This document shows, piece after piece, positions 2,121-63,228 of a DNA stretch of 64,000 bases. The translations under genes and the position numbers were made by a program. Positions within the stretch are counted from its first letter, which is position 1. Each line of letters opens with the position of its first letter. The stretch is from the NCBI RefSeq assembly GCF_018446385.1, contig NC_056000.1, forward strand, positions 47,462,722 through 47,526,721, read 5' to 3'. The notes under the pieces were generated by a model, which made no database searches, had not been told where the DNA came from, and saw only the letters and a list, made by a program, of their open reading frames with translations. Source of the stretch: Zingiber officinale (lineage: Eukaryota; Streptophyta; Magnoliopsida; Zingiberales; Zingiberaceae).

Positions 2121-3233
2121 TGTTGAATTTTTTAGGGGGGGGATAATTATAGGGCCGAAAATCATGATAGAGAGGAGGTAAACATCGCTCGTTTGAAAAC
2201 TTCTTTATACTTCTTCTATCTTCATAAAACCAAATCAAAATATATTAGTAGTAGAATAAAAGTAAAGACAAAAACATAATCAGTTTTACTTGATTTATAG
2301 CCCAGCCTACTACTACACCATAGCCTGCGATCTTTGACCGCTTAAATGGACGATCCACTATATAGATGAAGCAAACTCATACAATAAATGAAGGTGGATA
2401 GTAACAAATTATTATCACCTTAAATAAATACAAGTAATAAAACAGATATACCGACAATCAAAGAAGCAGAAGATTATGTAGATTGTTGGAGAGCCTCTCA
2501 GCATCGTAGTAATAACACTTGCACGATTTAAACACCATGAAGAGTATGAGATGTGGAAGAATTGATTGTGCGGCCTCTAACTTCAAGACTCTTTTTATAA
2601 CCTTTTTATTCGGTTGACTGATCCTTTTTGGTCAACTGACCTCTAGAATTTGCCCAACTTCATGTCTAGGTTCATGATCTACCTAGATCATATCTTCCAC
2701 GAAATCTTCCTTTTATCGGTCGATCAAATCCCAATTTGGTAGACTGAACAATACCAATCACTTCCTTTTGTTGCTTGATCCAATCTGATCTGATCTTCGC
2801 TTATCGAATGTGTTTAGTTGACCGAATACATGTTTGGTCCACTTAACTCTATTATTTCCCTCCTCATGTGACCGAATACATGTGATTCGATCTTATCTGA
2901 TATCTGGTTATCAAAGTACATTTGGTTAACTGATCATTCTTTCGGTCGACTGAATCATTATTTCTTTCTTTAATTTGACTCACTTTGAATTTGATCTAAT
3001 CACTGGTGATTAGTCGACTAGACCACTTGGTTCGGTCAATCAAACCTTTTGATTACCATAAAATTTATTTTTCTACAAAATAAAGTTAGCACGGTGTAAT
3101 AATAATGATCCTGTAAAATAGAGTTATGAACAGATAAGTATGCATGCATTAATATGATAGTAAAGGCAGTTTTGATCTCAACTTAGATACTTTCGTTGGT
3201 TTCTTGAGTTAGATCATTGCCTAAGGTTGTCTT
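2121..3233 (-). mobile_element. Left part of an old reverse-oriented LTR, split by the 18.9-kb element
   Basis: TGTTGAATTTTTTAGGGGGG at 2121 resembles the reverse complement of the pyrimidine-rich end of the local LTR family. The stretch carries many copies of a word like ggtcgactga, another LTR minisatellite. It stops exactly at the insertion point of the 3234-22131 element. Sequence right of that element (22137 to about 22770) continues in LTR style and ends near ctataggttga. The two halves therefore look like one old LTR split by the insertion. The outer ends are decayed and no target repeat was found. Confidence 0.5.
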
Positions 3234-4112
3234 TGTTGGTGCAGTTTACATTAACGGTCTAACTCAGGTTTTGATTAATGACAAATAAATTAAGTTAGAT
3301 GTATTTGTGTACTAAGTACTTACCAAGTGTACAGGAATTGACGGATCTAAAGGACTAGACACTAGGTTGAAATTCAGCTAGATCTGAGAGATCAGATAGC
3401 TGGTGCAAAGTTTAGATAGGTCAACGGATCGACCTGATATCTGGCAGAAAGTCTGGTTGGGTCCGCGAGACCTAACAACTAGTAGAAGTCCAATTGGGTA
3501 TGCAAACCTGACAACTGGTATGAAGACTTGGTGGGTCAAGAGGCTGGGCAATCGACTGCAAGTTGGTAAGTAAAGGTAAGTCACTGGAGGAGAGTGACTC
3601 GGTGAGGACACATTCCAATTAAGGGACAATAGGCGTTATTCTAGTTTAGGTTCATTTTGAATCCCTAAATTGAGACGTTGACTATATCCTAGTCTCTAGG
3701 AGTCAGAATCTAATTACTATTCAGTATAATTATGCTAACACTTGTCTTGTAGGTTATTATTTAGTTTATTAGACTAACACACTTTGCAAGGCAAAAAGAA
3801 CGCAAAAAGCCTCGGGTGAACAGTACCTAAGGCGCCTTCCAGGAGATGGAAGGTGCCTTGGCACTCTTCATAGAAGGCGCTTTCAGTGCATGGAAGGTGT
3901 CTTCCGCAAGATAAAGTTTAGACCTTGTCGCGGATGAGGGCCAGCTTGTTCGGGATCAGAATTGCCGCATTGGAGGCGCCTTCAAGGCTTCTAACTTGTG
4001 TTTTTTATTTCTTTATTTTTCGCTGTGTACTTTGCCTTTAAATTTGAAAAGAAAAGATAAGTTTTAAAAAATCACATGATTCACCCCCTCTCACGTGTGA
4101 CTTGATCCAACA
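3234..4112 (+). repeat. 5' LTR of the 18.9-kb element
   Basis: It begins TGTTGGTGCAG and ends GATCCAACA, and aligns by eye with 20900-22131. It carries GGCGCC palindromes near 3831 and 3978. It is followed by a weak match to the tRNA-Met primer site (TGATATCAAAG). Confidence 0.8.
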
Positions 4113-4377
4113 AGTGATATCAAAGTAGATTCTACTCTGAATTGATGCAACCATCAATCAAGTAAGGGGGAATTGATTTATTTTCTTTGAATTTTAGTTT
4201 TTCACATTCTATTTGAATTGGTAAAAGTTTTTCTCTTCAAATAATTTCTTCTCGTTCGGTTTTTTTTCTCAAAGTTGGTGCAACACCAATCGAGTTCCTC
4301 GATTTCTCTTTCTTAAAACTCTACTAATCCAAGACCAAGTCTTGGTACCTTCTTCAAGTTTTCTATTTTAGTTCTAA

Positions 4378-5900
4378 ATGGCCCAAAATGAAGGATATAG
4401 CACCGTTCATCCACCACTTTTCAATGGAGATAATTTTTCATATTGGAAGAAGCGGATAGAGGTGTACCTGAAGACTAACTTTGACCAATAGTTCAGCGTC
4501 ACCAAAGGATACAAGGCACCTGTCGACAACGTCGGAATTCCAATAGACCTAGAAAATTAGAATTCAAAAATGAAGGAAAAGGCCCAGATCGACTTCAAGA
4601 CCCTCAACAAAATCCAGTGTGAATTAACAAAGGAGGAGATGAACCTCATCGGCCCATACGAAAACGCAAAGGAGCTATGGCACAAAGTTGTAGAACTACA
4701 CGAGGGAACTAGTGATGCCAAGGTAACAAAAAGAGACCCACTTTTAAATAAATTATTTAATATAAAAATATAGGAAGGAGAATCCGCTAGTCAGCTACAC
4801 GTAAGAATAAAAGACATCCTCAACAGGTCTACACAATCGGTTATCAAATGGAGAACTGAGACTTGATAAGGTATGCCCTAAATGTCTTTCCTCAGAATGC
4901 ATTGTAGGCATCCATCGTGGATGCCTACAAAATATCGAGGAATCTATATAAACTTAAATTAGATGAACTTTTTTGTGAATTAGAACTACAAATAGACTAA
5001 TGCTAACCCCGAGAAAGGTATTGTTCTTGTTGTAGGAATTCCAAAAGAAAAATTTAGAACTATACCAGAACCTGAAGTTGAGTCTGACCCAAACTCAAAC
5101 AATGAAGAATACTTGGTGAACCTAGTAAGAAAAATGTTCACCAGGAGAAAGAAAATTTTCACCAAAAAGGATCTGTAGAAGATCAACACCACTTCTAACT
5201 CCAACAACAACAAGACGAACGTCACGTTCTTTGGATGCAATAAGAACGAGCATTACAAGAAAAATTGCCCAAATCTCAAGAAGAAGAAAACCCTCAAGGT
5301 GACTTGGGATGAATCATCCGTGGAGGAATCAGACGACAAGAAACCAAGGCATACCAACTACCTCGCACGGATGGCATATGGACCAGAGTTGGAGAGTGAA
5401 TCGAAGACGGGTCTGAACCCGAATCGAGCCATGAGTCCGTACTCGTTTTCGAAGGTTCCGACGAGGTACAGTTTACCTTAAGCAAAAAGTTTTTTAAATT
5501 ATTGCTTGCTTACATAAGAAATTGACTGTATCTAAAGAACAAATAAATGAACTAACCAAAGAAAATAAAATATTTAACAAACAACTAAATTCAAACTCAA
5601 TAATTAAGCCAATTCAACCTGAAATTTTGAGTCAAGTTGCACAACTTGAGGAGGATAATTCCAGATTGAAAAGCAAAATACTTGAACTAAAATAACTATT
5701 AGAAAAATTCACAATAAGATCTAAGTATTTGGATATGATACTTGGATCACAAAGAGCTGTGTACAATAAGCCAAACTCGGATACAAGTCTAGCTCAACTA
5801 ACAAAACATCTATATCTTTAGTCAACCAGTATAAAAATCAAACCAAAACCTGGGTTCCGAAAGCATGCCTAACCACGCAAGTTGGAATCAATCAATAGTA
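4378..5900 (+). pseudogene. Fossil gag region of the copia-type element (UBN2-like, zinc knuckle)
   Basis: Readable pieces of a copia gag protein: an N-terminal part with YWKKRIEVYLKT, a middle part with LWHKVVELHEGTSDAKV typical of the UBN2 / gag-polypeptide family, and a zinc-knuckle remnant beginning FFGCNKNEHYKKNCPN followed by an acidic serine-rich stretch. The same layout appears in the better preserved gag at 11540-12798. The region is broken in several places and is a fossil. Family membership is from motif recognition. Confidence 0.75.
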
Positions 5901-6186
5901 CGTACCTAAGAATAAAATACACTACCTAAAACCAAATAAACCAAGTAACTCAACCTCAATCTCAAAAGTTAAACCCACTAAACTAAATTCAATAAGATCA
6001 AACGAATCAATAACCAAACCTAAATTAAATAACAACAAATTAATCAAAACTCAAGCTATAACCAAGTCTACTATAACTATAAAATAAATTGGCACAAAAC
6101 CTAAACCCAAAGTCCAACAATTCAAGGGGAGGCTCCAAACTAGTTGGCGCCTCCAAAATCAATAACTTACTTGAGTGGGTAATTAG

Positions 6187-7275
6187 TGTTGGATCGTAAG
6201 CGTTCGATAGAGGGGGGGTGAATATCGATTAAAAACTTTCGTCGAGTAAACGCAGCGGAAAAGTAAAGACAAAGTAAGAAGGCAAGGCTAACACAGTTCG
6301 GTTTTACTTGGTTCGGAGCCTGTGTCGACTCCTACTCCAAGGCCCGCACTCGTCGAGTGCTTTCGTTGGGCAATCACTATCAATTCGAAAGATGTTACAA
6401 ATAAAGTACAGGAATTAATAGAATGAAAATATCGACAAACTGAAAAGAAGTAAACTGAAGACAGCGCTTTGTCGGAGCAGCCTCAAGGCGTCGCAGGAGC
6501 ACAGTAGAGCAGAGAGTTCTGAGTTGTGTTTGAAGCTCCACCCCTGTCCCTTCTTTTATATGAAGCTCGGGGTGCCCCGGATCCCTTCCAGGCGCCCTGG
6601 TGAGACGTGGCAGGTCCAACCAGCGAGCTCCACGTGGCGACGCGCGATCGGGATAAAACTTGCCTCCCGGGCGCCCGGATCCCCTCCGGGCGCCCGGACC
6701 ACCTTTCTCTAGAAATCAGCTTTCCTGCAAGACAAGGTTAGTCCGAGGCAAATAAATAGTATATATCCTGCAAAACAGAGTGTTAGCACAGTTCATAAGT
6801 TTAACATAAAAAGTATGACTTAGATTCCATCTTTCCGAGACCGGAATCTAGTCACGATCTCGACTTAGATATCCGAAATGGATCTAAGCCGGATCGACGC
6901 CTAATGTTCCCTTCCCGGGAACGCGTCCTCACAGTCACTCCCTTCCAGTGACTTACCTTCACTTACCTGACAGACGTCCGGTCAGCCCTTCGGCCCGTCT
7001 GGACTTCTTGCCAAGCGTTCGGTCTGCCCGTCGACCCGCTTGGACTTCTCGCCAGCTATCCGGTCAGCCCGTCGACCTAGCTGGACTTCTCCCCAAACGT
7101 CCGGTCAGCCCGTTGACTCGCTTGGACTTCGTGCCAAATATCCGGTCAGCCCGTCGACCTGTCTGGACTTCGTCTGCACACTCGGTCAGAGTGTTAGATC
7201 ACAACAAGCCTAACTTAACCCGATTTGTCATTCATCAAAACCTGAGTTAGACCGTTAGTGCTAACCACACCAACA
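6187..7275 (-). mobile_element. Reverse-oriented solo LTR inside the 18.9-kb element
   Basis: The stretch opens TGTTGGATCG and closes CACACCAACA, giving the TGTTGG...CCAACA ends of this LTR superfamily. Flanks are attag (6182-6186) and attaa (7276-7280), a target repeat with one mismatch. Read on the minus strand it matches the forward LTR ending at 17276: CGCTGCGTACTC-like words, a run of C, then GATCCAACA. It contains GC-rich ggcgcccgg words and a minisatellite of the type cggtcagcccgtcgac (6970-7170). Confidence 0.7.
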
Positions 7276-8173
7276 ATTAAGACTAGTTTAAATAAGGTCA
7301 AAAGTTTAACTTGATAAATGATACTGGTGAAGTTTAGATAATAGTAGGTTAGGAAAACTCTATCTATGCATATTTAGGAAGATATGACTTCGACCTGGTG
7401 CATTTGACTTAGTGGAATTAACTAAAGCTATCTCTTACAAATCCTAACTGGTTAGACCAGAGTTTTATATTAAGTTCAATGGATGGGATTATTTAGAAAA
7501 TTTTGAAGACGTGGTTACTCTAATGATATCCAGGTAACTCACCATAACTTAGAAGTTTATCCAAAAAATGTCTATTTGTTGAACCCAAAACTAAACTTGA
7601 ATCTAACATAAAGCTAAACCCAACCCTAAAATTCAACCTAATTTATCTCACAACATTATAAGATTCCCTAATTGAAAATATAAATCAGGTGAGATGATTA
7701 AGGATTTAAAATTAAAACTAAAATTTAAATTAAATTGAAATTAAAACTAAATTAAATTTGAAACTTAAATTAAGAATTAAAAAAAAACTGCGCCACTGAA
7801 GGTGCCTTCGTGACAATCAAAGGCGCCCTTGGAAGGGCGGGAAAAAATCCCGCCCTAATCAACTGAAGGCGCTTTCAGTTGATTGAAGGCGCCTTTCATA
7901 GCACATGGAAGGTGTCTTTCGTCAGGTAAAAGGCGTCTTTAATCGAATTTTTTCTAGCAAACAGAGGGCAACTCTGTTCGCGAATCAACTGACAGCAAGG
8001 CACCTTCCAGCGATTATTTTTCACGACTTCTCAAATTTTTCACCACCAACCCTCAATAATACCTCGTAGGTATACTCTAACTCAATCTATCTAGTTAATA
8101 TTTGAATACTTGTGTGTTCCCTTTGTTAAATTTGTGCTTACATGTTTACAATTTTAGGAAACAATGACATGTT
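7276..8173 (+). other. Interior of the 18.9-kb element, no intact coding
   Basis: AT-rich retrotransposon interior with a GC-richer patch (7790-8000) carrying several aaggcgcc words. No motif of integrase, reverse transcriptase or RNase H is legible. No host gene is seen. Confidence 0.45.
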
Positions 8174-9094
8174 TGTTGGCGCAGCGGGACCGGTCAGAGG
8201 GCACAGTGTCTGTAAGAGAAAAATAAAACCTTTCTCTATTTTTCAACTAAGATTAGTAGCATTATCACAATAATTATAATCTCAAAAATGAACAACTAAT
8301 AAAAAGAATAGGTAAACATATTTGACTTGGTTACAACCTAGGTGGTTGTTAATCCAAGGCGATTACCAAGCTCTACTAGAAAAATCTCCTTCTCTGTAGG
8401 CGGAGAAGCCTCTTGCACTCTTTGAAAAGCTTAGAAAGGACTAGAAAATGATTACAGTAGTTGTTCTCAAGTTGTTGTTCTATTTTCTAGCTCTATGGGT
8501 CTTTTTATAGCTCCTAGAAATCCTATCCTAAGCTTGAGGGTGCCTCCAAGGTGGATGGAGGGCACCTCCAGCAAGGCAGCAGCGGATAAGGCTTTATCCA
8601 CTACCAACGGTTCGTTTGACTGGCCGAAGGTGCCTTCACACTATTCATCGAAGGCACCTTCCAGTCATGGAAGGCGCCTTCCATAGAAGGTGCGAAGGCG
8701 CCTTCAACAGCCTTTGAAGGCACCTCCAGCAACACTTGCAGCTCCATTTTGCTCCTTTGCTTCTACAATCTCCTGGGTGATTTCGGCCACCGGAATAGGA
8801 TTCATCCGAACCCAATTTCCGGCCTTTTCCTCAAGCAGGCTTCCTCTCCAGCTTCTCGTCCTCGAACATCACGTACATTCTTCTCATCAACCGATGTACT
8901 CTTCCACAACCCTTTCATTCCTCGGATGCACCGAGCCCGTCAGCTCCTTTCTCGTGTCATCCTTTTTGCTAACTGCGTCTTCCGCTCAACTTTTTGTGCT
9001 CCTAAGCTCCTGCACACTTAGACACAGAGATCAAAACTAAACATGACCCAACCTAACTTAGTTGATCACATCAAAATAACTACGGGATTCAACA
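8174..9094 (-). mobile_element. Reverse-oriented solo LTR, same family as the gag-only element
   Basis: On the minus strand this starts TGTTGAATCCCGTAG...TTTTGATGTGATCAAC, close to the start of the LTRs at 10561 and 13659. It ends at TGTTGGCGCAGCGG read from the plus strand. A TATA-like word lies around 8501-8512 on the minus strand. It contains an 18-bp perfect palindrome centred on GGCGCC at 8667-8684. I could not find a convincing target repeat, so the exact ends are less certain than for its neighbours. Confidence 0.65.
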
Positions 9095-9349
9095 ATAACC
9101 CTAGCTCTTGCAATACCCCATCTGCTGATGCTAGATTCCCCACTGAACGACTTAGGTTATATTTTTTACAACATACATATGTTGTACTTGTTGGTGCAGT
9201 CAACCTCTAGGGTTTTGATGTTTAACAATATACCTAAGTCTGGTCAGTTTGACCAAGGGTTAATCCAAACAGGACTTGATGTTTAGAAAAGAATAGTCTA
9301 GTCAGGACTAGATGACTAGCAAGGAGAAGTCCTAACTGGAGGTTCGGCA

Positions 9350-9690
9350 AAGTGGAAGTCCTGGTGAGTGAATCCAGGCCCTAGTGAGCGTAGCTGGGTA
9401 GTGGATGGAAGTCCTAGTGAGTGAAGCTAGATAGTGGAAGTCTTGGTAAGTGAAGCCAGACCCTAGTGAGTGAAGCTAGGTAGTGGAAGTCCTAGTGACT
9501 GAAGTCGGGCCCTAGTGAATGAAGCTAGGTGATGGAAGTTCTGGTGAGTAAAGCCGAGCCCTAGTGAGTGAAGCTAGGTGGAGGAAGTCCTGGTGAGTGA
9601 AGTCGGACCCTAGCGAGTGAAGCTAGGAGGAGGAAGTCCTGGTACGTGAAGCTAGACAATGGAAGTCCTAGTGAGTGAAGCTAGGCAATC
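9350..9690. repeat. Minisatellite built on gtcctagtgagtgaag
   Basis: About ten alternating short units of the type ggaagtcctggtgagtgaag and ccctagtgagtgaagctag, in tandem and mildly diverged. The array lies in the first half of the LTR that begins at 9189, in the position where other LTRs here carry their own different arrays. Confidence 0.8.
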
Positions 9691-10560
9691 CTAGGGGAGA
9701 TAACCCTAGGTTATACTTGAATTCTATTTTACCTTACCATTTTATTGTTGGAATGTATACTAAAAGCCTAACTTTTTGTATAAACATTTATTTAGAAATA
9801 AGAATCACATTGGTCAAATGTCTACATTTATGCTAAGTGTAGTTGTCCATTTAATTTATATTGTAGATAACATGGTGTGAGGAGACACACAGAAGATCAT
9901 GTTATCAGATCCTTATAAATTATAAATAGTAGCTCACAACTAAGATGGAATGAACAAACCATTGGAGTGGTTGTAGTGTAATTTGGTATTAGTTTATCTA
10001 GACTATAAAATTATACTAGTACACTATGAGTATATTGAGCAGGACCATTTGAGATAGTTTCTTTTTATATTGACTATATAAAAGAACAAAACCTCTGTTA
10101 TTATGGAAGTACGTACTCTTAATCATAATATAATAATAAGCACGTATATTTAATATTTATTTCTTTAATTTATCAAAGGGTGTGATTTAGCTCATTAAAT
10201 CAATAGGCCCGATAAGTTAGGAAATGATATTATTTATATGGTGTGTTGTTGATTATAGAATGAAACTGTGTCCTAGTAATTTAGGTTGATGATACCCCCT
10301 TGAGGAGCTCATAAGGATTGTCATGTAAACTCTGCAGATGGACCTAGTCCGACATGACAATGAAGTTGAGTGGTACTACTCTTGGAGCTAGATATTAATT
10401 AAGTGAGTTGTCAGTAACTCATTTAATTAGTGAACATTCTATATCTTAAACACAGGAAGATTAATGCACTTATAATAAGAAGGAGCCCATAATGTAATTT
10501 GGGATTGGTGCGATAGTTTAATAATAACTCTTTAGTGGCATGAGTTATTATTGATGAACT

Positions 10561-11486
10561 TGTTGGACCTCTTGGTAGTTTTGATGTGATCAACCAAGTT
10601 GGTTAGGTCCTGCTGTGTTTGATCCCTGTGTCTGAGTGTGCAGGAGCTTAGGAGCACAGGAAGTCGAGCAGAAGACGCAGCTAGGGAGAAGGATGGCACG
10701 GAAAGGGAGCCGACGGGCTCGGTGCGTCCGAATGACGAGAGAGCTACGGAAGAGTACTCTGGTGGGCGTGAAGAGCGTGCGCGACGTTCGAGGGACGTTA
10801 AGCCGGACGGAAGGCTGCTCGAGGAGAAGGCCGGGAATTGGGTTCGGGTGAGCCCTATTCCGGTTGGCCGCAATTACCCAAAAGAACAGAGCTTCGGAGG
10901 CCAAAGCGAAGAAGAAAAGGAGTCAAAAGAGGCTAGAAATTACTGTAGCAGGAAGTTACTGTAGCAGAAGTTACTGTAGCTTGAAGGCGCCTTAAACAAG
11001 CTTGAAGGCGCCCTTAAAGGCGCCTTCAAGCCTGTTGAAGGCGCCTTCAACAGGTCTGTTTTGACCATTTGCACTGCGGATAAAGTTTTATCCGCTGACC
11101 AAGCTGGAGGCGCCTTAAACCTTGTTGGAGGCGCCTTGGACCCTCGGGATAGACTTTCCAGGAGCTATAAAAAGGCCCCTGGAGCTAGGAATTCAACAAC
11201 AACTCAAATATTCAATCTGTAGTGTTTCCTAGCAATAGTTCTGAGCTTTTGAAAGTGTAAAAGGTTTCTCCGCCTTCAGCAAAGGAGATTTTTTTTACTG
11301 CGCTTTTTCTACTGCCCTGGATTAACAACCTCCTTGGTTGTAACCAGGTTAATTCTCCTGTGTCTTTATTTTACTGTTTTATTTAACTATTGCACTAATT
11401 GAGTTGAAAGTATGAGGAGGGTATATTTATTTTTTTAGGAGCAATTCACCCCCCCCCCCCTCTTGCCGGCCTCCGCTGCACTAACA
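10561..11486 (+). repeat. 5' LTR of the gag-only element
   Basis: 926 bp, TGTTGG to CTAACA. It contains a triplicated ttactgtagcag word (10939-10980), a cluster of GGCGCC palindromes (10983-11135) including a 24-bp perfect palindrome at 11031-11054, and a TATA box (TATAAAAAG) at 11166. A run of C precedes its end. It matches 13659-14566 closely throughout. Confidence 0.9.
11166..11174 (+). promoter_or_regulatory. TATA box of the 5' LTR
   Basis: TATAAAAAG sits in the middle of the LTR, downstream of the GGCGCC cluster and about 320 bp before the LTR end. This is the usual place for the U3/R promoter of a copia LTR. Confidence 0.6.
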
Positions 11487-11488
11487 AG

Positions 11489-11500
11489 TGGTATCAGAGC
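11489..11500 (+). other. Primer-binding site for initiator tRNA-Met
   Basis: TGGTATCAGAGC, two bases after the 5' LTR, is the classic 12-base primer site complementary to the 3' end of plant initiator tRNA-Met and is used by most copia elements. Confidence 0.88.
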
Positions 11501-11539
11501 CTGATCGCCTCAGAAGGACTAACTGCCAACTGAAGCACT

Positions 11540-12798
11540 ATGATCAAGACAATGGCCGGCGCGAACATCTATCCCTCGAAGTTCGACGGAGATTTCGCTA
11601 CATGGAAGCAAAAAATGGAGGTATTCTTCAAAACCGAGTTCGATATCTTACTAACAATGAAATATGGTTTTTCAGCTCCTAAAGACAAAGAAGAGTTCCA
11701 ATGGACGAAGAAGGAGCAGGCAGATTTTGTGGCGAACGGAAAAGCTGAGTTTCACTTGCTCAGCGTTCTTCCGCTCCAAGAGGTAAGTCGGATCGGAAGC
11801 TATGACTCCGCAAAAGACTTCTGGGAGAAATTCCTAAAGCTCCACGAAGGCACCTCGGAAGTAAAGCTAGCGAGGCGCGACATTCTTCGAACACAACTAA
11901 CGAATCTCCGAATGAACACCGGCGAGAAGGTAGCGCAACTCCAAGCATGGATCAAGGAGCTGAAAACGCAACTGACGAATCTAGGCGAAACGGTAACGAA
12001 CCGAGACTCCATCCGATACGCGCTCAACGCCTTCCCGAGGACTCCGGAATGGGCGTCCTTAGTAGATGCTTACTACATCTCTAAGGACCTTGAGGTAAGT
12101 ACCTTAGAAAGTTTGTTTTCTACCTTTGAACTTCACGAGTCTTGGATTGCAGAGCCTAAAAAAGTAGTGAAGTCAAACCTCGACGTCGCCCTACAAGCAA
12201 GGAGGGACGATCCCGATTCCGAAGCTTCGATCGACGAATCCGAAGCGGCATTACTGGTAAAACGGTTTAATAAATTTGTAAATTCTAACAAATTTAGATT
12301 GCAGTCGAAAAGCTCCAGCGAAAGAAAAGGGTGGTTCGTTGCTACAATTGCAACGAAGAAGGACATATCAAAGATGACTGTCCAAAACTGAAGAGCAAAA
12401 GTAAGGAAAGGAGCAAGAAGCCCACTCGACCCAAACACAATCTAAAGGTCACGTGGGATGATTCGTCGTCCTCCGACTCCGAAGTCGAAGAATTCTCGGG
12501 ACTAGCACTGATGGCCAACCATCAGCTAGAAGAAACGTCCAGCTCAGAAATGAGCATAGATGAAGGGGGAGGAACATCAGAAGGAGAAAGCAATGATGAA
12601 GGGGGAGCATCGCAAGATGAGGTAAGTAAGGTACGTGCCCTAAACTCTAAACAATCTTTTGAGTTTATTAAAGCTTTGTCTAAAGAATTAGATCAATTAG
12701 AAAAAGAAAATGAAAATTTAAAATATGAAAATAAAAATCTAAAATTAGAAATTGAGAAATTAAGAAATAATACATGTTTAAATAGATTTCCAAATTAA
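11540..12798 (+). pseudogene. Gag region of the gag-only copia element (UBN2 domain, CCHC knuckle)
   Basis: The front part carries the UBN2 / gag-polypeptide signature: FDGDFATWKQKMEVF near the start, then FWEKFLKLHEGTSEVKLARR and LRMNTGEKVAQLQAWIKELK. The rear part carries a CCHC zinc knuckle (CYNCNEEGHIKDDC), an acidic serine-rich stretch and a charged coiled coil before the end. Frames overlap by about 60 bases around 12331-12391. This is a fossil gag with about one break. Known gag proteins package element RNA in the cytoplasm, but nothing here shows activity. Confidence 0.82.
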
Positions 12799-13645
12799 AA
12801 AATTAAAGTTTATGGAAAATTGAACTGGTACATTAGAAACTATCAGGGTCAACTTAGAAGAATACCCAAAAATTATGTACCCCCTAAGTATCTGAATAAT
12901 CCTGTAGGTAGGAACCTCTATTGGGTTCCAAAATCTGTGCTTACTTAATTTTTCAAAAATTAAAAGCTTACAGTAAGAAAATTAAACATTGAAATTCTTT
13001 ATGAAAGTTTTGTCTAAGGAAGTGGTTGTTGCTCCAATAACCAAGAAGGCCTAGTGCCTCGCCACGACCTGGAAGCTAAAATATTGAAAGAAAATGTTTA
13101 ATTAACTTTATGAAAAAGCATTAAACAATAATTAAATAATGCTTTGAAAGTTTATCAAATGTTTGTTAAAATAAACAAAAATTCCTTAGAATTTTTTTTT
13201 TTAAAAAAAATCTAACTTAATTTTTTTGTGGGTTAGAAATTTTCTTCTGGAAAATTCTAAAAAATTATTCACTTGACTTAGAAATTTTTTTTGGAACATT
13301 TGAACATTTACTTAGGATTTTTTTACTTAGATTTTTTTTTGGAAAATTGATTTTAACTTAGCAATTTTTTTATTTTCAAAAATTCATTTTTAACTTGGAA
13401 AATTTTCAAAAACTTCAATCTTACTTGAAAATTCTTAAGACTCCATTTTTGCTGTGATCAAAGGGGGAGAGAAAAGTACAAGTTTAGGGGGAGTTAGAAA
13501 TTTTTTTTTTAATTTAAAATTCTTTGTCTTACAATTTTACTAATTGTAAAAATTATACTTAACTTGTTAGTTTAGTAATTTTTTCTTTAAAATTACTGTT
13601 TATGTCTATTTTTAACCCTAACTTGAACTTGGGTTGATGCACATC

Positions 13646-13658
13646 AAAAGGGGGAGAT
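13646..13658 (+). other. Polypurine tract of the gag-only element
   Basis: AAAAGGGGGAGAT directly abuts the start of the 3' LTR. This is the normal plus-strand priming site of LTR retrotransposons. The larger element has the same purine word before 20900. Confidence 0.85.
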
Positions 13659-14566
13659 TGTTGGACCCCGTGGTAGTTTTGATGTGATCAACCAAGTTGG
13701 TTAGGTCCTGCTGTGTTTGATCCCTGTGTCTGAGTGTGCAGGAGCTTAGGAGCACAGGAAGTCGAGCGGAAGACGCAGCTAGCGAGAAGGACGGCACGGG
13801 AAGGGAGCCGACGGGCTCGGTGCGTCCGAAGGACGAGAGAGCTGCGGAAGAGTACTCCGGTGGGCGTGAAGAGCGTGCGCGACGTTCGAGGGACGTTAAG
13901 CCGGACGGAAGGTTGCTCGAGGAGAATGCCAGGAATTGGGTTCGGGTGAGCCCTATTCCGGTTGGCCGCAATCACCCAAAAGAACGGAGCTTCGAAAGCC
14001 AAAGCGAAGAAGAAAAGGAGTCAAAAGAGGCTGAAAATTACTGTAGCAGGAAGTTACTATAGCAGAAGTTACTGTAGCTTGAAGGCGCCTTCAAGCCTGT
14101 TGAAGGCGCCTTCAACAGGTCTGTTTTGACCGTTTGCGCTGCGGATAAAGTTTTATCCGCTGACCGAGCTGGAGGCACCTTAAACCTTGTTGGAGGCGCC
14201 TTGGACCCTCGGGATAGACTTTCCAGGAGCTATAAAAAGGCCCCTGGAGCTATAAAAAGGCCCCTGGAGCTAGGAATTCAACAACAACTCAAGCATTCAA
14301 TCTGTAGTGTTTCCTAGCAATAGTTCTGAGCTTTTGAAAGTGTAAAAGGCTTCTCCACCTTCAGCAAAGGAGATTTTTTTTACTGCGCTTTTTCTATTGC
14401 CCTGGATTAACAACCTCCTTGGTTGTAACCAGGTTAATTCTTTTGTGTCTTTCTTTTACTGTTTTATTTAACTATTGCACTAATTGAGTTGAAAGTACGA
14501 GGAGGGTATATTTATTTTTTCAGGAGCAATTCACCCCCCCTCTTACCGGCCTCCGCTGCACCAACA
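13659..14566 (+). repeat. 3' LTR of the gag-only element, with doubled TATA segment
   Basis: 908 bp, nearly identical to 10561-11486. It carries the same 24-bp palindrome (14096-14119). The 20-base segment holding the TATA box occurs twice in tandem, so TATAAAAAGG is at 14231 and again at 14251. It ends CACCAACA followed by the target repeat gaact. Confidence 0.9.
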
Positions 14567-14814
14567 GAACTTGAGTTGGGTGTTCGGGGCGAACACAAGA
14601 AGCTCAAGCTCATCGGGAGACCAAAAGTAATTTTTCCTCTCAGTCCCTGTTGTAGCCTCTATAAAACCTTATATCCACAAAGTTCATTTCTTACCCAAGT
14701 AATGGGTCAGCTACATCCTTGCTTGGTGCAAGGGGTCGGCCAAGCATGAGCTTGGAAGCCAAGAGGTGGTCGGTCATAGCTTGGTGCCCAAGCTAAGGGT
14801 CGGCCACATGGAGA

Positions 14815-15380
14815 ATAAAAGGAAAATGAAGTTTTGTTTTGAAACAAAATTTTGTTAAAATCTTTCCTTATTTGATCTACAATGGATAAAAGAGAGATTT
14901 TATTTTGTTAAAATCTTTCCTTATTTGTAGTTATCTACAATGGATAAAAGAAATATTTCAATTTCCTTTTATAGTCATCCTCATGGTTTTAAAAGAGAGT
15001 TTTAAAATTTTAAAATCTTTCCTTTTATAGCTATCTATAAAAGATTAAAGAGAGATTTTAATTTTGTTAAAATCTTTTCTTATTTGTAGTTATCTATAAT
15101 GTTTAAAAGAGATATTTTAATTTTTGATAAAACTTTCTTTTTTTGTAACCATGATTTAAAAGGAAAAGTTTTAATTAATCTTTCCTTTTTGTAGTTGTCT
15201 ACATGTTTTAAAAGAGAGAGATTAATTTTAAAATTTTCCTTTAATGTCATGTACAATAGGAAATTTTAAAAGAGAGATTTTAATTTTGTTTAAAATCTTT
15301 CCTTGCTTAGAGCACAAGCTTGTGGCCGGCCACACCATGATAGAAAAGGAAGTTTAATTTTTTTGTTATAAAACTTTCTT
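14815..15380. repeat. AT-rich tandem array in the long solo LTR
   Basis: Roughly seven diverged units of 55-90 bases share the phrases aaagagagattttaattttg, aaaatctttcctt and tgtagttatctac. They lie downstream of a purine-rich, cggccaca-containing stretch. The array belongs to the 9746-16359 LTR. Short open frames nearby are not coding. Confidence 0.65.
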
Positions 15381-17276
15381 TTTTTACCTTGACCAAGGAT
15401 TATAAAAGAGAAGGAGAGGGTGCCTCATGGGGTAACACAACCCTATTCTATTCCTCTCTTCTATTCTTCCTTGGTGTGGTCGGTTTCTCCACTCCCTTCT
15501 CTCTTCCTAAGGCCGGCGGCACAACCTTGCTTCCTCTTTCCCTTTCTTCCTTCTAGGGTTGCACTCCATATCATCTTTGTGGCCGGAGGTTGGAGAAGAA
15601 GATAAGAAAGAGCATAGAGGTGGCCGGTTGCTTGGAGAGGAAAAAGAAGAGAAGGAGTTTCCTATTTTGGCATCCCTTGGTGGCTCGAGAGTCTTGGAGG
15701 AGAAGAAGTGGTTCGAGTGGATTCTATATTGGTAGATCATTGCCCACACAACGTCTAAGAGGAGAAGAGGAATACAACAGAAGATCAAAAGGTCTTTAGC
15801 TACTAAGAAAGGTATAACTAGTTATTTGTTTCCGCATCATAACTAGTTCATGTTCTTTGTTTAGATTTTGAAAAACCAAACACAAGAGGCTATCTGTTTT
15901 AGTTTATTGTTTTGTTATCAATTTTATTTTTCAATTTCATGTTTCAATATTGTATTTCTATTGAGGTCTCTGTGGTTAAACCTAGTTTACTGTGAGAAGT
16001 TTAAATATCCAATTTCTTTGAAAGGCTTTGTCTAAGAAGTGGTGGATGATCTCATACCCAAGAAGGTCTAGTGTCTCGCCACGTTTGACCTAGAAGTCGA
16101 TCCTTGAAATAGATATTTGATCAAGTTCTGTAATATGATTTAACTTAGGAAGATCACATTGGTTAAATTTGAAGTAAGAATGTTATGTTTCGTTCCCAAT
16201 TCAAGTTTAACTTCTGAAGGACAATTTGGATTAATAATGTTAAGCATCATTTGCAATCCAAATTTAACTTCAGTAGAGCACATGGGTAGCTAGGATAGTT
16301 CTATGCTTATACAATTTTTGTAAAGGGACCTAGGACGGTAATCTGAGTAGCAACCAACATTTATCTATTGTGCTAACTCAGTGTTGCAGGGAAGTCCAGC
16401 TAGTTCAACGGGCTGACCAGATAGCTAACACAAAATCCAGACAAGTCGACGGGCTGGCCAGATGTTTGGCAAATAAGTTAAGGTAAGTCATTGGAGGGGA
16501 GTGACTTGATGAGGACGCGCTCCCCGTTCGAGGGAACAGTAAGCGTCAATCCAACTTAGAACCATTTCGAGAATCTAAGTTGAGATCGTGACTAGATTCT
16601 GGTCTCGGTGAGACAGAATCTAATTACTACCCTTTTACTATAATTATGCTAACACTTTATTTTGCAAGGTAGTATAAATTGTATGTTGTCTTGGACTAAT
16701 ATTTTCTTATAAGAAAATGATTTTCTGGAAAATGGTGGTCTGGGCATCCGAAGTTGGTCCGGGCGCCCAGAACTGGTCCGAGCGCTCGGAAGGCAAAACT
16801 TATACTCATCACAGCGTGGAGTGTGCTGATTGGCTGGGCCAACATCACGGTCCAGGCGCTCGGAAGGGATCTTGGCACCCGAAGCACTCCTATAAAAGGA
16901 GTCTTCCTCTAGAGCTACAAATAACAACTTCTTTCCATGACTGCTCTGTTGCGCTCTGCTCCTGCAACGCTGCAAAGTTTTTCCGACAACCTGTGGCTCA
17001 AGTTCTTTTCAATTGTTGTCGGTATTTCTTTTAAGAGTTCTTGTATTTATATTTGTAATCCTTTTTGCGAACTGCTAGTGAATTGTCCAACGAAAGCACT
17101 CGACGAGTGCAGGCCTTAGAGTAGGAGTCGATGAAAGCTCCGAACCAAGTAAAATTGGTTCGTGTTAGCATTGTGTCTTTCTTATTTTCGCTGCGTACTC
17201 AACTTGACTTTATTACGAATTTTTCGATCGCTATTAACCCCCCCCCCCCTCCTCTAGTGAATTCTACGATCCAACA

Positions 17277-18100
17277 GTCCTAAAGTCTAGGTTTTTGAGT
17301 AGGTATTTCTTTATCAGATACTATGCACCTATCATAGAGATTATTGATTACTACCCCTTAGATAGGCTAGTTTACTGTAGTCATGCCGTAAATCTAGACT
17401 TATGTGCATAGTTTTACAACAATCTTAGCTTATTAAAATTAATGACCAGACTTATTCTACTAGAGTTGGTGGGAAGGACTTTCACTTCTCCCCCACTCTA
17501 TTATATCATAGCTTTGAACTCAGGAGGTCAGCCTGTCCATTTTTATGCTACCTTAGTAGGGATTTGTCATTTGGTGAACTCTACTCCCATATTACATTAG
17601 ATACTATCTATATGTATTTTTTGGGAGGAGAGACTACCTACTGTGACTAATTTTAGGTCACTCTCCCTTAAGGTCCAGAACTATATCTTGTATCGAGTCC
17701 TGACCACATGCATTTTGTTAATCACATCTCGCGATGTTGTGATAATGCAACCCTCTCACTCTTTCTTCCTATATGCACTTTGTTAGCGTCTTGACATCGG
17801 CATCACATGACACATATTTCATAATGTCATTCATGCATCTAGTCTTGTCACTAGGCGTCAGGTTTATATACCTTATTGTCACATTTTGACATACATATTC
17901 TCGATCATAGGGGTAGATATGACACAGGGTACATCCACTCCACTTAGTGCATATGACGAGATTGATCAGCGATAGCTCGTACTAGTGCATAAAGAGGTTA
18001 CTGCTCAGGGGGGACTAGCATGGAGAGTGGGACCATAGCCATACATACCAGGTGAAGCCGAGGATGATTTTTCACCTATCATTTTGGTTGAGGAGAGGAG
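17277..18100 (+). other. Interior of the 18.9-kb element, no intact coding
   Basis: Moderately AT-rich sequence that continues across the 18101-19148 insertion. I cannot assign it to gag, pol or a host gene. It may be spacer or a decayed accessory region of the outer element, or of another element recombined into it. Confidence 0.4.
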
Positions 18101-19148
18101 TGTTGGTGCAATTGACCTAGGTTTGATCAGTACGATCATGGTTTTGATGTGTGTGCCAAAGAGTTTAAGTTAGACTTTTATATGTATTTGATATGTATTT
18201 GAGTCATGCAGGACTTGGTGAAACATATGAGGAACTTGGTGCAGCTAAGTTTGGGAAGCTCATCCAAGGGCTCGGATCCTTGAGTCGGTGAAGGATGGTG
18301 TGAAGACATCCGAGGGACCGTCAGACGAGGAGCAACGAAGTGAAGTTAAAGGAAGCGGACTTCAAAGCAACGTGAAGGATGGCACGGAGAGGAGCTGCGG
18401 GATCGGGTGCATCTGAGAGACGAAGGCTGAGGAAGAGGGCTTCAAGGGCGACTTCGGAAATGATGAGTGTGAGTGTGTAACCAGGACCAGTCGACTGATG
18501 GAAGTTCCAGTTGATTGGTCCAGCTAACTATGCACTCGACTGGGAGTGAACAGAAATATTATGTTCGCTTAGCCAACAGTGACCAGTCAATTGGTATTTT
18601 CACTAGTTAACTGGTAAGTGATCGTTGTCGATCATTTGCAGAAACTCTGATGTTATCAAGTAGCCGTTGGCTGTGTTCAATGGTTGCACTAGTCGACTAA
18701 TGGAAGTGCCAGTCGACTGGTGATCAACTCTTTCCTCTCTATATATTGGAAGCTTAGGGCATTGAAGGAGGTTACTGATCTTTTTGATACACTCCTAGTC
18801 TTGGCCTCTAGGCTTCCAAAGCCTAACACTCTTCTTCCAATTCCTATTCTCAATCTTGTAAAGAAAAAGAGTGCCTTGTGAGAGGTTGTACTCCACCGAG
18901 AAGGAGTAAGGTTTATCTGAAGATTGCTAGGGACTAATCCACCGAAGGATTAAGGGTTTGTCCATCTCAAGGACAAGCCATGGAGTAGGAGCAAATAATC
19001 TTCGAACCACGTAAAAGGAATCGTGTTAGCGTTTGCCATTCTTTCTCTACATTGCTTCGAACCACACACTAACCTTGCAGAGAAGAAATCAAGTTGGGGG
19101 TGACCTAGCCTATTCAACCCCCTTCTAGTGGCCATCCGATCCCCAACA
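18101..19148 (+). mobile_element. Solo LTR with exact target repeat aggag
   Basis: It opens TGTTGGTGCAATTGACC and closes GATCCCCAACA. Exact target repeats aggag lie at 18096-18100 and 19149-19153. The 1,048-bp LTR contains repeated cagtcgactgg words (18490-18720) and a TATA-like ctctatatatt near 18736. It has no internal region or partner LTR. Confidence 0.85.
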
Positions 19149-20899
19149 AGGAGTTGCCGACATTCACGGCCAAGGTGCTCTTTGGACAGCCTCTGACTCT
19201 AACCCAGCCCTCGGCCTCGACCCATCCTTCGACCTCACTATCCATTGAGGATCGACTAGCACGACTTGAGGAGTCTTCGACATAGCTCTTGCAGTCAGTC
19301 TCGGACGGATTCAACACTCTTTGGGGAGAGTAACCACCAGATTCTCCTTGCTCTGGGAGGAGATGACCACTGGACTTCAACAGATTCTCCGAGCCTTGCG
19401 AGTACCTGAGCAATTCCCACCCCCTCTAGCTAATGAGGACTAGATTTGATCATCCTAGTACACTATCATACTTTGTATACTTGGTTGACTAGATCTATCT
19501 AGTTGTCCACTTTTTGTCATCTTATTTGGATAATTTATGATTATGTCTCATAGACTAGGCCTGCTATTCTCAAAATATTTTTTCAAATAATTTATAAATT
19601 ATAAGAAAATTTTCTTACTTTCTAAAAATTCTCATTTGCTTAGATTTTCAAAAATTGATTTTAGCCTTAGTCTAGATCAAATTCATAGAAAGTATGATCC
19701 TATAGACTTAGAACTTGAGCATCTCACAAATACACTAGGACTCCCTTGATTGTGTATTCAAAAACTTAGAATGGTGTGAGATTATAGGCAAATTGCCTAG
19801 ACTTATGATGCATATATCAGTGCATCGATACAAGTCTAGACAAAAAAAAAATACTAAAACTATAATAATCAAGTTAGGTAATCCATCTTAGTCAAACACT
19901 AACTGGATACATGTACTTAACTTGACTACCAAGTGAATACTGCTATCTCATGATAATTAGCTAGTAACTAAAGCTAGACATTTAAGGATAATTTCTAGAT
20001 ATTTATTTTCCTTAATATATATCAGTTTCAGGGGGAGAACACTCTCAAAAATATTTTCTTTAACTTACAAACAAGTTTGAAAAACTTGCAATCTTTGAAT
20101 ATTTTTCTAAAATAATGTCTTCAAGTATAAACTCAAAAAGTACTATTTTGTTTTAAAAATTTGAAAAATGTCTTTGAAATTTTTAAAACTTTTTCTAATT
20201 TACAAATTCTTATTTAAAATTACTTTGAAAATATTTCTAAAGTTAAAATTCTTTTTTTTTCAAAAATATTTTACAATTATAGAACAGAATTTGGGCTTAA
20301 AACTAAGGTTGGTTATTTTAAAAAGATAAAAAATACTTTTGAGAAAAATTATTTATCTTGAAAAACTACGTAATTATGATAATGTTGAAAAATCATATCA
20401 TTTTTAAAAAACCTGAACTTTTTTCAAAATTATTTTTCTACCTGCTTTCCAAAAAAAACCTTATATTTTTTCAAATCTATTATGCAAAGTTGATTTTTTT
20501 GGAAAGGTGGTTGAAAAGTGTTTCACTTAACCCTTTTTTTAAAGCTATTACTAAACAAAAAGCTTAAGTAATTTTATGTTTTCAAAATTTAATTCCTCCC
20601 TCCAAATTGGTGTTTAAAATGTTTTTACTAACATTTTATTACTTTCAGTGTTTCTTTTACTTAACTTATTTTGAATTATATATCTATATATTTTTTTTAT
20701 TAATGTCAAAGAGAGAGGGTTAGGATTTAAATTAGAAATCCAAGAAAATCATGAATACTTAAACCTAAAAGTGATTAAGAGAAATAAGTTTTACTACATA
20801 TCTTTTTCTTCTTTTACTTCTCTTAAATCATTTTCTATATTTGCTGCATATTTTTTCTAACTTTAACTCAGATTATTTTTTTATCAAAAAGGGGGAGAT
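19149..20899 (+). other. 3' interior of the 18.9-kb element
   Basis: A short GC-richer stretch (19149-19440) is followed by about 1.4 kb of T-rich sequence full of ttttcaaaaa words, ending in the polypurine tract AAAAAGGGGGAGAT before the 3' LTR. The same T-rich layout precedes the 3' LTR of the gag-only element (12800-13640), so it is normal for this group. No gene was seen. Confidence 0.5.
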
Positions 20900-22131
20900 T
20901 GTTAGTGCAATTTACACTAACGGTCTAACTTAGATTTTGATAAATGACAAATGAGTTTAGTTAGGTGCATTTGTGCACTAAGTACTTTAGCAAGTGTATA
21001 GAAATTGACGAGTCTGAAGGACCTGACACCAAGCTGAAATTCAAGTAGGTCCAAGAGATCGGATAGCTGGTGCAAAGTCTGACAGTCGGTAGAAGTCTAA
21101 TTGAGTTTACGGACCTGACAACTAGCATGAGCACCTGGTGGGTCAAGAGGTTAGTCAACAGATTGCAAGTTGGTAAGTAAAGATAAGTCATTGGAAGAAA
21201 GTAACTCGATGAGGATGTGTTCTGGTTAAGGAACAGTAGGTGTCGATCAAATTTAAGTCAATTTCAAATCCCTAAACTGAGACCTTGACTAGATCCTAGT
21301 CTCTAGGAGACAAGACTTAATTACTACTCAGTATGATTGTGTTAACACTTGTCTTATAGGTTACTATTTGGTTTATTGGACTAACACACTTTGCAAGGCA
21401 AGAAGAGCACAAAAAGCCTTAGGTGAACAGTACCCGAGGCGTCTTCCAGGGGAAGGAAGATGCTTTGGCCCATAGAAGGCACCTTCTGCATGGAAGGTGC
21501 CTTTCGCAGGATAAAGTTTAGACCTCATCGCGGATAAAGGCCAGCTTGTTTAGGATCAGAATTGCAGCATTGGAGGCGCCTTCAACGCTTCTGAAGGCGG
21601 CTTCTATAGCCCTTATAAGGGCTTCTCGACCTAAGCTTCAAGAATAACTTCAATGTGAGCTTCTACTCGTCCATTTGAGGTTCCAACTACACCGGCTTTT
21701 TGCTGTGACTCTGCTACGATGCTGTTACCCCTGACTACTACTGAGGAGTCAACTGACATCGAGCCTAAGCTAACAATCTTCATAGGAGTTGGGTAACAAA
21801 CTTGTAATTTGTGTACTTATTTGCAAAAAGGACAAGTGCAATGTATTGCACTTGTTCTATCTTTCTTTATACTCGATTTCCTTTTTCGGGGGTACCGGAA
21901 GAGGTTGTTTAGTGAATTATCCATCAATAGGTCCACGAGATCTGGATCTTGGAGTAGGAGTCGTTGAAGGCTCCGAACCAAGTAAACTGACTGTGTCTAA
22001 TTTGATTTTTTAACTTGTGTTTTTTATTTCTGTGTTTTTCATTGGGTACTTTGCTTTTAAATTTGAAAAGAAAATAAAAGTTTTAAAGAACCAAGTGATT
22101 CACCCCCTCTCACGTGCAACTCGATCCAACA
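20900..22131 (+). repeat. 3' LTR of the 18.9-kb element
   Basis: 1,232 bp, TGTTAGTGCA to GATCCAACA, followed by the target repeat gtctt. It aligns by eye with 3234-4112 along most of that LTR and carries a GGCGCC palindrome near 21574. The final 100 bases also match the end of the solo LTR at 517-1793. Confidence 0.82.
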
Positions 22132-22136
22132 GTCTT

Positions 22137-22770
22137 AACTCGGACACGACCTCACCATTCCACTCCAGGAGTTTACTTCAACTTAATCACTAAAAATCTG
22201 GTCCTACAGAGCTGTTTGGACTTTTTTTGATCCTGCTTAATGTCTGATCAACTTGATCGACTAAGATTTTCTTGTGACATTGAGTTAGCACAATAGATAT
22301 AAAAAAGTAGAGTAGTGTTAACAACATTCAAGATTCGCTGGTCCGATCGATCACGCACGGTCTACCAGAAATCATTTGGTCACACTTGCTCAGAGTTTAC
22401 TCCTCCAAGACTTCTCATCTGCCTAACCTCCAGTTAGGACTAGTTACTCGATAAACTTCTCACCATTGCCAAACTTTCAGTTATCTTGACCACTTGGATT
22501 TGCTAGTCACTCGGGAAATTACTCACCATTGCCAAGCCTTCAGTTACCTTGACCACTTGGACTTGCTTGTCACTCAATGGACTACTCACCATTGTCAAGT
22601 CTTCAATCACTTTGATTTGTTAGTCACTCGGTAGGCTACTCACCACCACCTAACCTCCAGTTAGAATTCCAATTAGGACTTCTTCTTGGTTATGCCAACT
22701 TTGACCAAACTCCATTAAATATATTGATAAACAAATATCAAAATTCTATAGGTTGATTAGACTAATAATA
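22137..22770 (-). mobile_element. Right part of the old split LTR, with minisatellite
   Basis: This continues the LTR remnant interrupted at 3233. Units such as ccaagccttcagttacct-tgaccacttgg and gtcactcggtaggctactcacc repeat about four times (22430-22660). It fades out near ctataggttga, the reverse complement of an LTR start like that at 9189. It is decayed. Confidence 0.5.
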
Positions 22771-23445
22771 ATGATAATAGAAAATTAATTATAGAAAATA
22801 ATTTTAAATTAATTTTAATCACTCGATCGAGATATATTATTTTGACATCATAATTTAAGATCGATATTAATCGATAGTTGGAGATAATATTTTTAAATTC
22901 AATATATTAAGCCCTTCACTTCATCAAATAAAATCATTCAAAAATTACTATTATATGTCACTTTATCTTTCCTCTTCGTCTGATTAAGATCCCTTGCTCG
23001 CTCGGTTGGTTACTCTCGAAGTTCCAATTGGTGTGCTCGACCGCATAGGAATGTTTCGACAAATATGCAATGACATTTTTAGAACTTCAAATAAAAGAGG
23101 GGCCTAATTTGAATTTCTCTTACCATTTTTAAGAACATATGAAACTTAATATCCTCACATAAGGCCACAAACCCCACACGTTTGCCTCTTCCTCACCAGT
23201 CACAAAAATAGAAACAAAAAAACAAAAACAAAGACAGATCAAAATGAACCGGCCGGTCTACCATTACTTGATCAAACCGGCTCAATTACTGCTTCACGCT
23301 GCTAATTCACTTGGATTATATCATTTTTACGGTCCAATTTGCCCGGTCCAACCGCTAAACCGATCCAAGTCCCTGTCGGAAATAACGATAACTACTCTGC
23401 TCCCGGCCACACATGGCACGCCATCGAATCCCTTCCTCTGCACGC
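22771..23445. other. Spacer and upstream region of the plastocyanin gene
   Basis: AT-rich to 23230, then mixed composition. No gene is seen. The last 250 bases should hold the promoter of the plastocyanin gene; apart from the TATA box I could not pick out a convincing light-response element by eye. Confidence 0.5.
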
Positions 23446-23451
23446 TATAAA
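23446..23451 (+). promoter_or_regulatory. Probable TATA box of the plastocyanin gene
   Basis: TATAAA in a C-rich setting, 41 bases before the ATG at 23487. If it sets the start of transcription about 30 bases downstream, the 5' leader would be only about 10 bases. An upstream TATA-like word near 23318 is an alternative. Confidence 0.5.
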
Positions 23452-23486
23452 CCTCACCGATTACCTCAATTCTCCGGAGAATCTCC

Positions 23487-23987
23487 ATGGCCGCTACCTT
23501 CGCCGCCTCTCCGGCACTCGCCGAAGCCCCTGCTTCCTTCGGAGGCCTCAGGGGCCGCAGCAGCAGCAGCGTGAGGAGGGGCAGTGACAGAGTAGTAGTA
23601 GTTCGAGCGTCGCTCAAGGAGGCGGTGGGCTTGGCAGTGGCTGCGACGGCGGCCAGCGCGGTGGTGGCGAGCGGCAGCGCGCAGGCCTTTGACGTGCTGC
23701 TGGGGAGCGACAGTGGGGAACTGGCGTTCGTGCCGAGCAGCTTCTCGGTGGCGGCGGGGGAGAAGATCGTGTTCAAGAACAACGCCGGGTTCCCGCACAA
23801 CGTGGTGTTCGACGAGGACGAGGTCCCGGCAGGCGTCGACGCTGGGGCCATCTCCATGGCGGAGGAGGACCTGCTGAACGCTCAGGGGGAGACTTACTCC
23901 GTCACGCTTAGCGCCAAGGGCACCTACGGCTTCTACTGCGCCCCGCACCAGGGCGCCGGCATGGTCGGAAAAGTAACCGTCAACTGA
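23487..23987 (+). CDS. PETE: Plastocyanin, chloroplast precursor
   Basis: A 166-residue intronless gene for the small copper protein that carries electrons from the cytochrome b6f complex to photosystem I in the thylakoid lumen. Residues 1-67 form a two-part transit peptide: a serine- and arginine-rich chloroplast part, then an alanine- and valine-rich lumen signal ending GSAQA. The mature part starts at FDVLLGS and is 99 residues, the family's standard length. The copper ligands are visible: His104 in GFPHNV, then Cys151, His154 and Met159 in [11 protein letters not shown] (mature 37, 84, 87, 92). The ATG is the first in frame and gives a normal transit peptide. The gene is very GC-rich against its AT-rich flanks, common in monocot genes. 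No disruption is seen. Long frames on the opposite strand are shadows. Confidence 0.97.
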
Positions 23988-25090: not shown

Positions 25091-25681
25091 CAGTTCTCAC
25101 CCCGTAAGGTGTGTTTTCTTTGCCTGTTCCTCTTTCGAGTATAGATTTTGCGGTTTTTTTTTTTTTTTTTTTTTTGGCGGGGCGTTGTATTTTGCCGTGA
25201 CTTCGTCAGGAATCATCGGTTGAGTGGGAGGGTTTTTGGAAGAGTGAACAGATCGTGGAAAGTTGAGTGGGATTCTGCTTTTCTGATTCGGGGAGAGGGA
25301 TGGCCCTTAGAAGTGATCACGTAATCGTAAAGTTTAATGGTTAAGTTTGTATTTGCGTGTTCTGTCAGATGAATCGACTTCGTAGTGAGTATCTAATTTG
25401 GATACGCAAATGGAAGAGGAGTAAAAGAGATTTGAAATATTCAAATAGTTTGATATTGTGTTTCTTTCTTTGAATTCTGGAAGGGGAGTTAAATCTTTGA
25501 TGACCTTCCTGCATTCAGTATCTTTACCTGCTTTAGTTACTGCTTTATAATCCAAATGATATGCTTTATGGGGTTTCTATTGATCCAGTCTCACAGGTGA
25601 AGTTGCGCATTCAGTTTCTGATATCAGATTATTTGGGTGTAGATGCTAAAAACACAAATGCGGGCTTAGACGAGATGAGGG

Positions 25682-44548: not shown

Positions 44549-44639
44549 TATCTGAGCTAAGTTCTTCACCACCACCAGTTGCTCTTATATCACAACCACA
44601 CACACTCTACACTTATTCAATTCTAATATGATGGTAGGA

Positions 44640-62997: not shown

Positions 62998-63076
62998 GTT
63001 TTTATGATTTTGCTTCATTAAAAAAAACTTGCTTATTAAATCACACATCATCTCGTAACTTTCCCATTATTAACAA

Positions 63077-63149: not shown

Positions 63150-63228
63150 TTTTTTATGATTTTGCTTCATTAAAAAAAACTTGCTTACGATATCACACAT
63201 CATCTTGTAACTTTACCCTATATAGCAA

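Follow-up and report, generated by a model that had tools for sequence, protein, structure and literature searches.

A nest of LTR retrotransposon insertions beside a plastocyanin-family gene in ginger

The nest and its borders

The window analysed here is a stretch of 64,000 nucleotides of the ginger (Zingiber officinale) genome, C15:47462722-47526721, and nest positions are counted within it. A plastocyanin-family gene lies at 23451-23987 on the plus strand (PF00127, E = 5.5e-37); the edge of a nest of LTR elements is about 0.7 kb away. Farther to the right, open frames match PP2C (26545-26961), RINGv (40391-40786), and Helicase_C (47875-48537); they are presumably exonic and belong to three ordinary genes. 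The stretches at 33640-34098, 44014-44550, 57603-58472, and 62904-63372 hold tandem duplications of local extent and one longer array whose repeats have diverged. Just left of the nest, a solo LTR that an earlier note made from the sequence does not list occupies 517-1793; it is flanked by exact catac repeats and is present in both haplotypes. Nested LTR elements are textbook material. In large plant genomes they are described as the rule, with the oldest element at the base (PMC2773423, PMC6911290), and 56.6% of the ginger genome is reported to consist of LTR elements (PMC8342452).

The nest occupies 2121-22767. The earlier note had proposed a chain of insertions up to five levels deep, and this is borne out by the borders, the target repeats, the family copies, and an empty site on the other haplotype, C16; five nested elements correspond to four insertion events. 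The layers are called L0 (outermost) to L4 (innermost), and x1 to x3 are extra inserts in L1. As read from the borders in the sequence, the old solo LTR L0 holds L1 (3234-22131), which holds L2 (9189-17276), which holds L3 (9746-16359), which holds L4 (10561-14566). The features are as follows.

2121-3233, minus strand: L0, outermost old solo LTR, left piece (orientation from the resemblance of its ends, read by eye)
3229-3233: L1 target repeat gtctt, left (sequence)
3234-4112, plus strand: L1 5′ LTR (pair with 20899-22131)
4113-20898, plus strand: L1 internal region, broken by x1, x2, L2, and x3 (family copies)
4561-4770, plus strand: L1 gag fragment, weak PF14223 match (E = 0.00026, below the Pfam cut-off)
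6187-7275, minus strand: x1, solo LTR in L1 (repeats attag/attaa)
8174-9094, minus strand: x2, LTR-like copy in L1, akin to the L4 LTR (no recognisable target repeat)
9189-9745, plus strand: L2 solo LTR, left piece (gtact at 9184-9188)
9746-10560, plus strand: L3 solo LTR, left piece (tttat at 9741-9745)
10561-11486, plus strand: L4 5′ LTR (gaact at 10556-10560)
11534-12795, plus strand: L4 gag, in two frames in this copy (PF14223 and PF00098)
13659-14566, plus strand: L4 3′ LTR (gaact at 14567-14571)
14567-16359, plus strand: L3 solo LTR, right piece (tttat at 16360-16364)
16365-17276, plus strand: L2 solo LTR, right piece (gtcct at 17277-17281)
18101-19148, plus strand: x3, solo LTR in L1 (repeats aggag/aggag; common to both haplotypes)
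20899-22131, plus strand: L1 3′ LTR (pair with 3234-4112)
22132-22136: L1 target repeat gtctt, right (sequence)
22132-22767, minus strand: L0, right piece, second gtctt included (family copies at the right end)

A target duplication flanks each of the four inserts L1 to L4. The three exact repeats that had been noted before, gtctt for L1, tttat for L3, and gaact for L4, were read exactly, and the pair gtact/gtcct at L2 is also as described, with four of five bases alike and one mismatch. The ends of L0 carry no recognisable target repeat (actct versus ataat). Its right end, at about 22767, is backed by family copies, and its left end at 2121 by a TG-like terminus as its sole support, without family copies. 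In a self-comparison, LTR pairs are seen at 3234-4112/20899-22131 (L1) and 10561-11486/13659-14566 (L4), which means that two of the five layers have a pair. The three LTR inserts x1, x2, and x3 had not been listed earlier. Despite the missing target repeat of x2, copies of the L1 family are contiguous across its site at 8174-9094.

Solo LTRs are products of LTR-LTR recombination. L2, L3, x1, x3, and the element at 517-1793 resemble them as single LTR-like copies directly flanked by exact or near-exact repeats, whereas L0 and x2 differ in having no recognisable target repeat.

Uninterrupted copies and the nature of L1 and L4

For each insert, the two flanks were joined with one target site and searched against the whole genome (3,090,333,446 bases in 211 contigs), and the best 40 candidates per search were scored; the counts below refer to these candidates and are not family-wide totals. 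The join of L1 in L0 is read through in 36 of 40 scored places, the other four being halves of the filled site on both haplotypes. For L2 in L1, read-through was found in 39 of 40, and the remaining one is the window's own right half. L3 in L2 gave 40 of 40, one of which is the allele on C16; 63 further rows of this search are partial matches of a tandem-repeat half. L4 in L3 also gave 40 of 40. Thus, among the best 40 scored for each, the outer element is contiguous in other copies at all four sites. Reading the junction bases in two to five family copies per junction revealed one target site, exactly tttat at the L3 site and gaact at the L4 site, with substitutions at the L1 and L2 sites. 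The comparison with uninterrupted family members, as it had been suggested, shows flanks that are contiguous without the inserts and have a single target site. The earlier claim that removing each insert restores a continuous outer LTR holds as to continuity; in the case of L2, however, the interrupted sequence is the internal region of L1 rather than an LTR.

What kind of element is L1? It had been described as an 18.9-kb copia element. The span is indeed 18.9 kb, but its own sequence comes to about 7.7 kb after removal of x1, x2, L2, and x3, and the copia-type gag match is weak (PF14223, E = 0.00026, 20.9 bits versus a cut-off of 27). When 13 of the 38 L1 pieces with at least 45 amino acids were scanned against Pfam, there was no match to reverse transcriptase or integrase, and nothing beyond this weak gag match and coiled-coil noise. 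In these pieces the Ty1/copia arrangement of pol, with integrase before reverse transcriptase, was not found. In three L1-family copies (L030, L031, and L032), the internal parts are contiguous and in the same order, and the gag zinc-finger piece is separated from a second ORF by about 1.6 kb. Given the length of pol, this gap is too short to hold it. The second ORF gave a weak PF20167 match in two of six family pieces scanned (best E = 2.2e-7, below the cut-off), and the second ORF of one family copy, compared with solved structures, gave a single chance-level match (E = 0.2). L1 is filed here as a putative pol-less element with a copia-type gag.

Two other views of L1 were considered and rejected. 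One took it for two unrelated elements, the DNA beside L2 being unlike the gag part; L030 to L032 hold these parts contiguously. The other denied that its LTRs, with 75% identity and gaps, are a pair; the four-way comparison of haplotypes described below identifies them as a pair older than the haplotype split. The 5′ LTR is about 0.4 kb shorter than the 3′ LTR (gap at 3989-3992). Since the gap is common to both haplotypes, this loss predates their split.

The gag of L4 is clearer (PF14223, E = 4e-13; zinc knuckle PF00098, E = 1.5e-7), and in this copy it is split over two frames. AGTGGTATCAGAGC stands directly after the 5′ LTR and AAAAGGGGGAGAT directly before the 3′ LTR, as read in the sequence. 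The two gag pieces are the sole stop-to-stop frames of at least 120 amino acids in the internal region, the shorter frames having been scanned in part, which agrees with the gag-only label already given to L4. Of 40 scored places, the window among them, 39 continue without interruption past the end of gag and through 87 bp or more of the 3′ LTR; in the remaining one the match stops 6 bp into the LTR. Thus, the gag-only structure is a property of the L4 family. TR-GAG elements are described as non-autonomous retrotransposons, and for one of them transposition was observed in Arabidopsis (PMC8704663). L4 matches that description in having two LTRs, gag as the only coding region with no pol found, and many copies of like structure. 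It differs in that the gag of this copy is split over two frames.

The other haplotype and the order of events

The published ginger assembly is reported at 3.1 Gb, with 11 chromosome pairs, 219 scaffolds, and an N50 of 141.27 Mb (PMC8342452). The genome contains one further full-length match to a 551-bp stretch on the right side of the nest, at C16:42788312-42788849 (94% identical); three additional matches are short and weak. The 70 kb around the C16 match were compared with the window, so that one other haplotype enters the comparison.

Positions -1159 to 3620 of the window, which include the solo LTR at 517-1793, L0, and the start of L1, are present on C16. There, the segment 9197-9745 is followed directly by 16360-21431; the two overlap by five bases, a single tttat, and L3 and L4 are missing between them. 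C16 reads accttacaattttatctattgtgctaac at the site where the window holds L3 with L4 inside. L0, L1, L2, x3, and the right end of x2 are common to both haplotypes, and L3 and L4 are found only in that of the window. C16 is also without window positions 5811-8939 (3.1 kb: x1, part of x2, and part of L1). The break has a 2-base overlap and resembles a deletion by end joining. Because of this loss, x1 cannot be placed relative to the split.

C16 also received separate insertions in this nest. Two of them, about 16.8 kb long at the position matching 3615 (target repeat ccaat) and about 5.5 kb long at that matching 4549 (ctaga), have LTR ends like those of the L3 family. A third of about 8.4 kb, at the position matching 9197 (cagtc), belongs to the x1 family, and a fourth of about 1.6 kb, near that matching 21431, has ill-defined borders.

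Divergence was expressed as Kimura distance (K2P). The L1 LTR pair has K = 0.19 in a four-way alignment and 0.20-0.23 pairwise (the value of 0.23 has a 95% interval of 0.197-0.275); on the other haplotype it has K = 0.175. Between the haplotypes, K within the nest is 0.091 (0.084-0.098) over 9049 aligned sites of L1 and L2, including x3 and part of x2. The L4 LTR pair has K = 0.041 (0.029-0.056). The prediction that the pair at 3234/20899 should be more diverged than that at 10561/13659 was fulfilled (0.19-0.23 versus 0.041), the inner pair being the younger. Among the four L1 LTRs, 46 informative sites join 5′ with 5′ and 3′ with 3′ across the haplotypes, versus 9 and 3 for the other groupings; thus L1 is older than the haplotype split. 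The series from the L1 pair (0.19-0.23) through the haplotypes (0.091) to the L4 pair (0.041) likewise places L1 before and L4 after the split. L3, itself without an LTR pair, is bracketed between K 0.041 and 0.091. LTR pairs found only on C16 also lie below the split, one at 0.022 and another at 0.040 and 0.020 for two pieces. At the rate of 1.3e-8 per site per year used in PMC8342452, the L1 pair would be about 7-9, the split about 3.5, and the L4 pair about 1.6 million years old, as arithmetic only.

The distances are comparable only within element DNA, because haplotype divergence differs strongly between segments: 0.08-0.14 in the nest, 0.037 at 22783-24660, and 0.0125-0.0144 at 24680-41774. 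Near 24670 it drops rightward from 0.037 to about 0.013, and transversions also fall about threefold. Since transversions fall too, methylation-driven transitions alone do not explain the drop. Constraint may contribute to it.

One LTR pair contradicts its own nesting order. The C16 insertion matching 3615 contains a further, nested element whose atttg target repeat is exact. The two LTRs of this element differ by K = 0.090, or 0.054 away from gaps, with 35 gap runs, 74 transitions, and 68 transversions. The host's pair has K = 0.040 and 0.020 in two pieces, the first being 0.013 away from gaps. The nested pair is thus more diverged than that of its host. The patchy differences in it look like assembly error; either this C16 stretch contains assembly errors, or LTR divergence is unsafe as a clock here.

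Competing readings and the meaning of the nest

Four lines of evidence support nested insertion in the order given and uphold the order of events proposed earlier: the target repeats, the contiguous flanks in family copies, the divergence of the LTRs, and the empty site on C16, which is exact. The locus almost certainly reflects successive retrotransposon insertions in one haplotype of a heterozygous diploid, beside the plastocyanin gene. On this reading, an old element was reduced to the solo LTR L0, which then took up L1, with its copia-type gag and no pol found. LTR elements that now appear as the solo LTRs L2, x1, x2, and x3 next entered L1; L2, x2, and x3 did so before the split. After it, an L3-family element entered L2 in the window's haplotype and was reduced to a solo LTR, into which the gag-only L4 was then inserted. 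The other haplotype gained separate insertions at other places in the nest. Of this account, the junctions, the single-copy target site on C16, the sharing of layers, and the relative divergences are observed directly. By what is generally known of such elements, integration would be of the copy-and-paste type with 5-bp staggered cuts, the internal regions would have been lost via LTR-LTR recombination to leave solo LTRs, and L1 and L4 may have been mobilised by the pol of other elements.

Might the C15 and C16 regions be duplicates or homeologues rather than alleles, so that the "split" is a duplication? K = 0.091 inside the nest is high for alleles. Published heterozygosity, however, is also reported as high (3.78%, PMC8342499), window positions 24.7-41.8 kb align at K 0.0125-0.0144, and the right flank has no third close copy. 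In addition, the 22 large scaffolds form 11 pairs, as in the haplotype-resolved diploid assembly described in PMC8342452. A duplication is thus very improbable, and the nesting order would stand even if the regions were duplicates.

Another reading takes L3 and L4 to be ancestral, with a later loss from C16. Presence and absence alone leave gain and loss unpolarised, and C16 did lose 3.1 kb nearby (5811-8939). A deletion would, however, need to take the element together with exactly one target repeat; C16 has one exact tttat and no scar, as in the three L2-family copies read, and at 0.041 the L4 pair postdates the split (0.091). I consider such a loss barely credible. A stack made by misjoined repeat reads has equally little to recommend it: the families are high in copy number (8691 and 5830 first-look candidates), the published assembly is described as built with ONT reads (PMC8342452), and the LTR pair of the atttg element on C16 looks error-laden, but the junctions coincide exactly with 5-bp target repeats, neither the window nor the flanks examined contain an N, the outer three layers (L0 to L2) recur on the other haplotype, and a misjoin would not yield a single-copy target site in the allele.

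Successive insertion thus remains the preferred reading. Is the nest also a local sink, in that the L3 family prefers such old retrotransposon DNA or its chromatin? After the split, three L3-family insertions fell within about 14 kb of older element DNA common to both haplotypes, one in the window (9746) and two on C16 (matching 3615 and 4549). A naive Poisson estimate for them gives P from 3e-6 to 1.4e-3, depending on the copy number assumed and on whether the insertion that prompted the comparison is counted; the comparison was made after the fact and takes no account of the tendency of such elements to cluster in general. I regard a sink as unlikely. The retrotransposon "burst" of which the nest had been called a record is not shown by one locus.

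The nest resembles those described for other plants in having the oldest element at the base (PMC2773423, the 1996 maize paper cited there, and the TE-nester survey PMC6911290), as well as in its 5-bp repeats and in nested copies whose LTR divergence makes them younger on average (PMC2773423, PMC6911290). It differs in that the empty site can be read directly on a phased second haplotype; this brackets a solo LTR that has no pair. It involves no new mechanism and is a clean, ordinary case of a known phenomenon.

The locus also gives a warning about clocks, since one nested LTR pair contradicts its own nesting order. The haplotypes are six to seven times as diverged in the nest as in the neighbouring genes; thus, the genome-wide value of 3.78% reported in PMC8342499 is the wrong yardstick here, and by it the L4 pair would seem as old as the split. 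The value of the locus is methodological: a filled and an empty site in one assembly bracket a solo LTR without a clock of its own.
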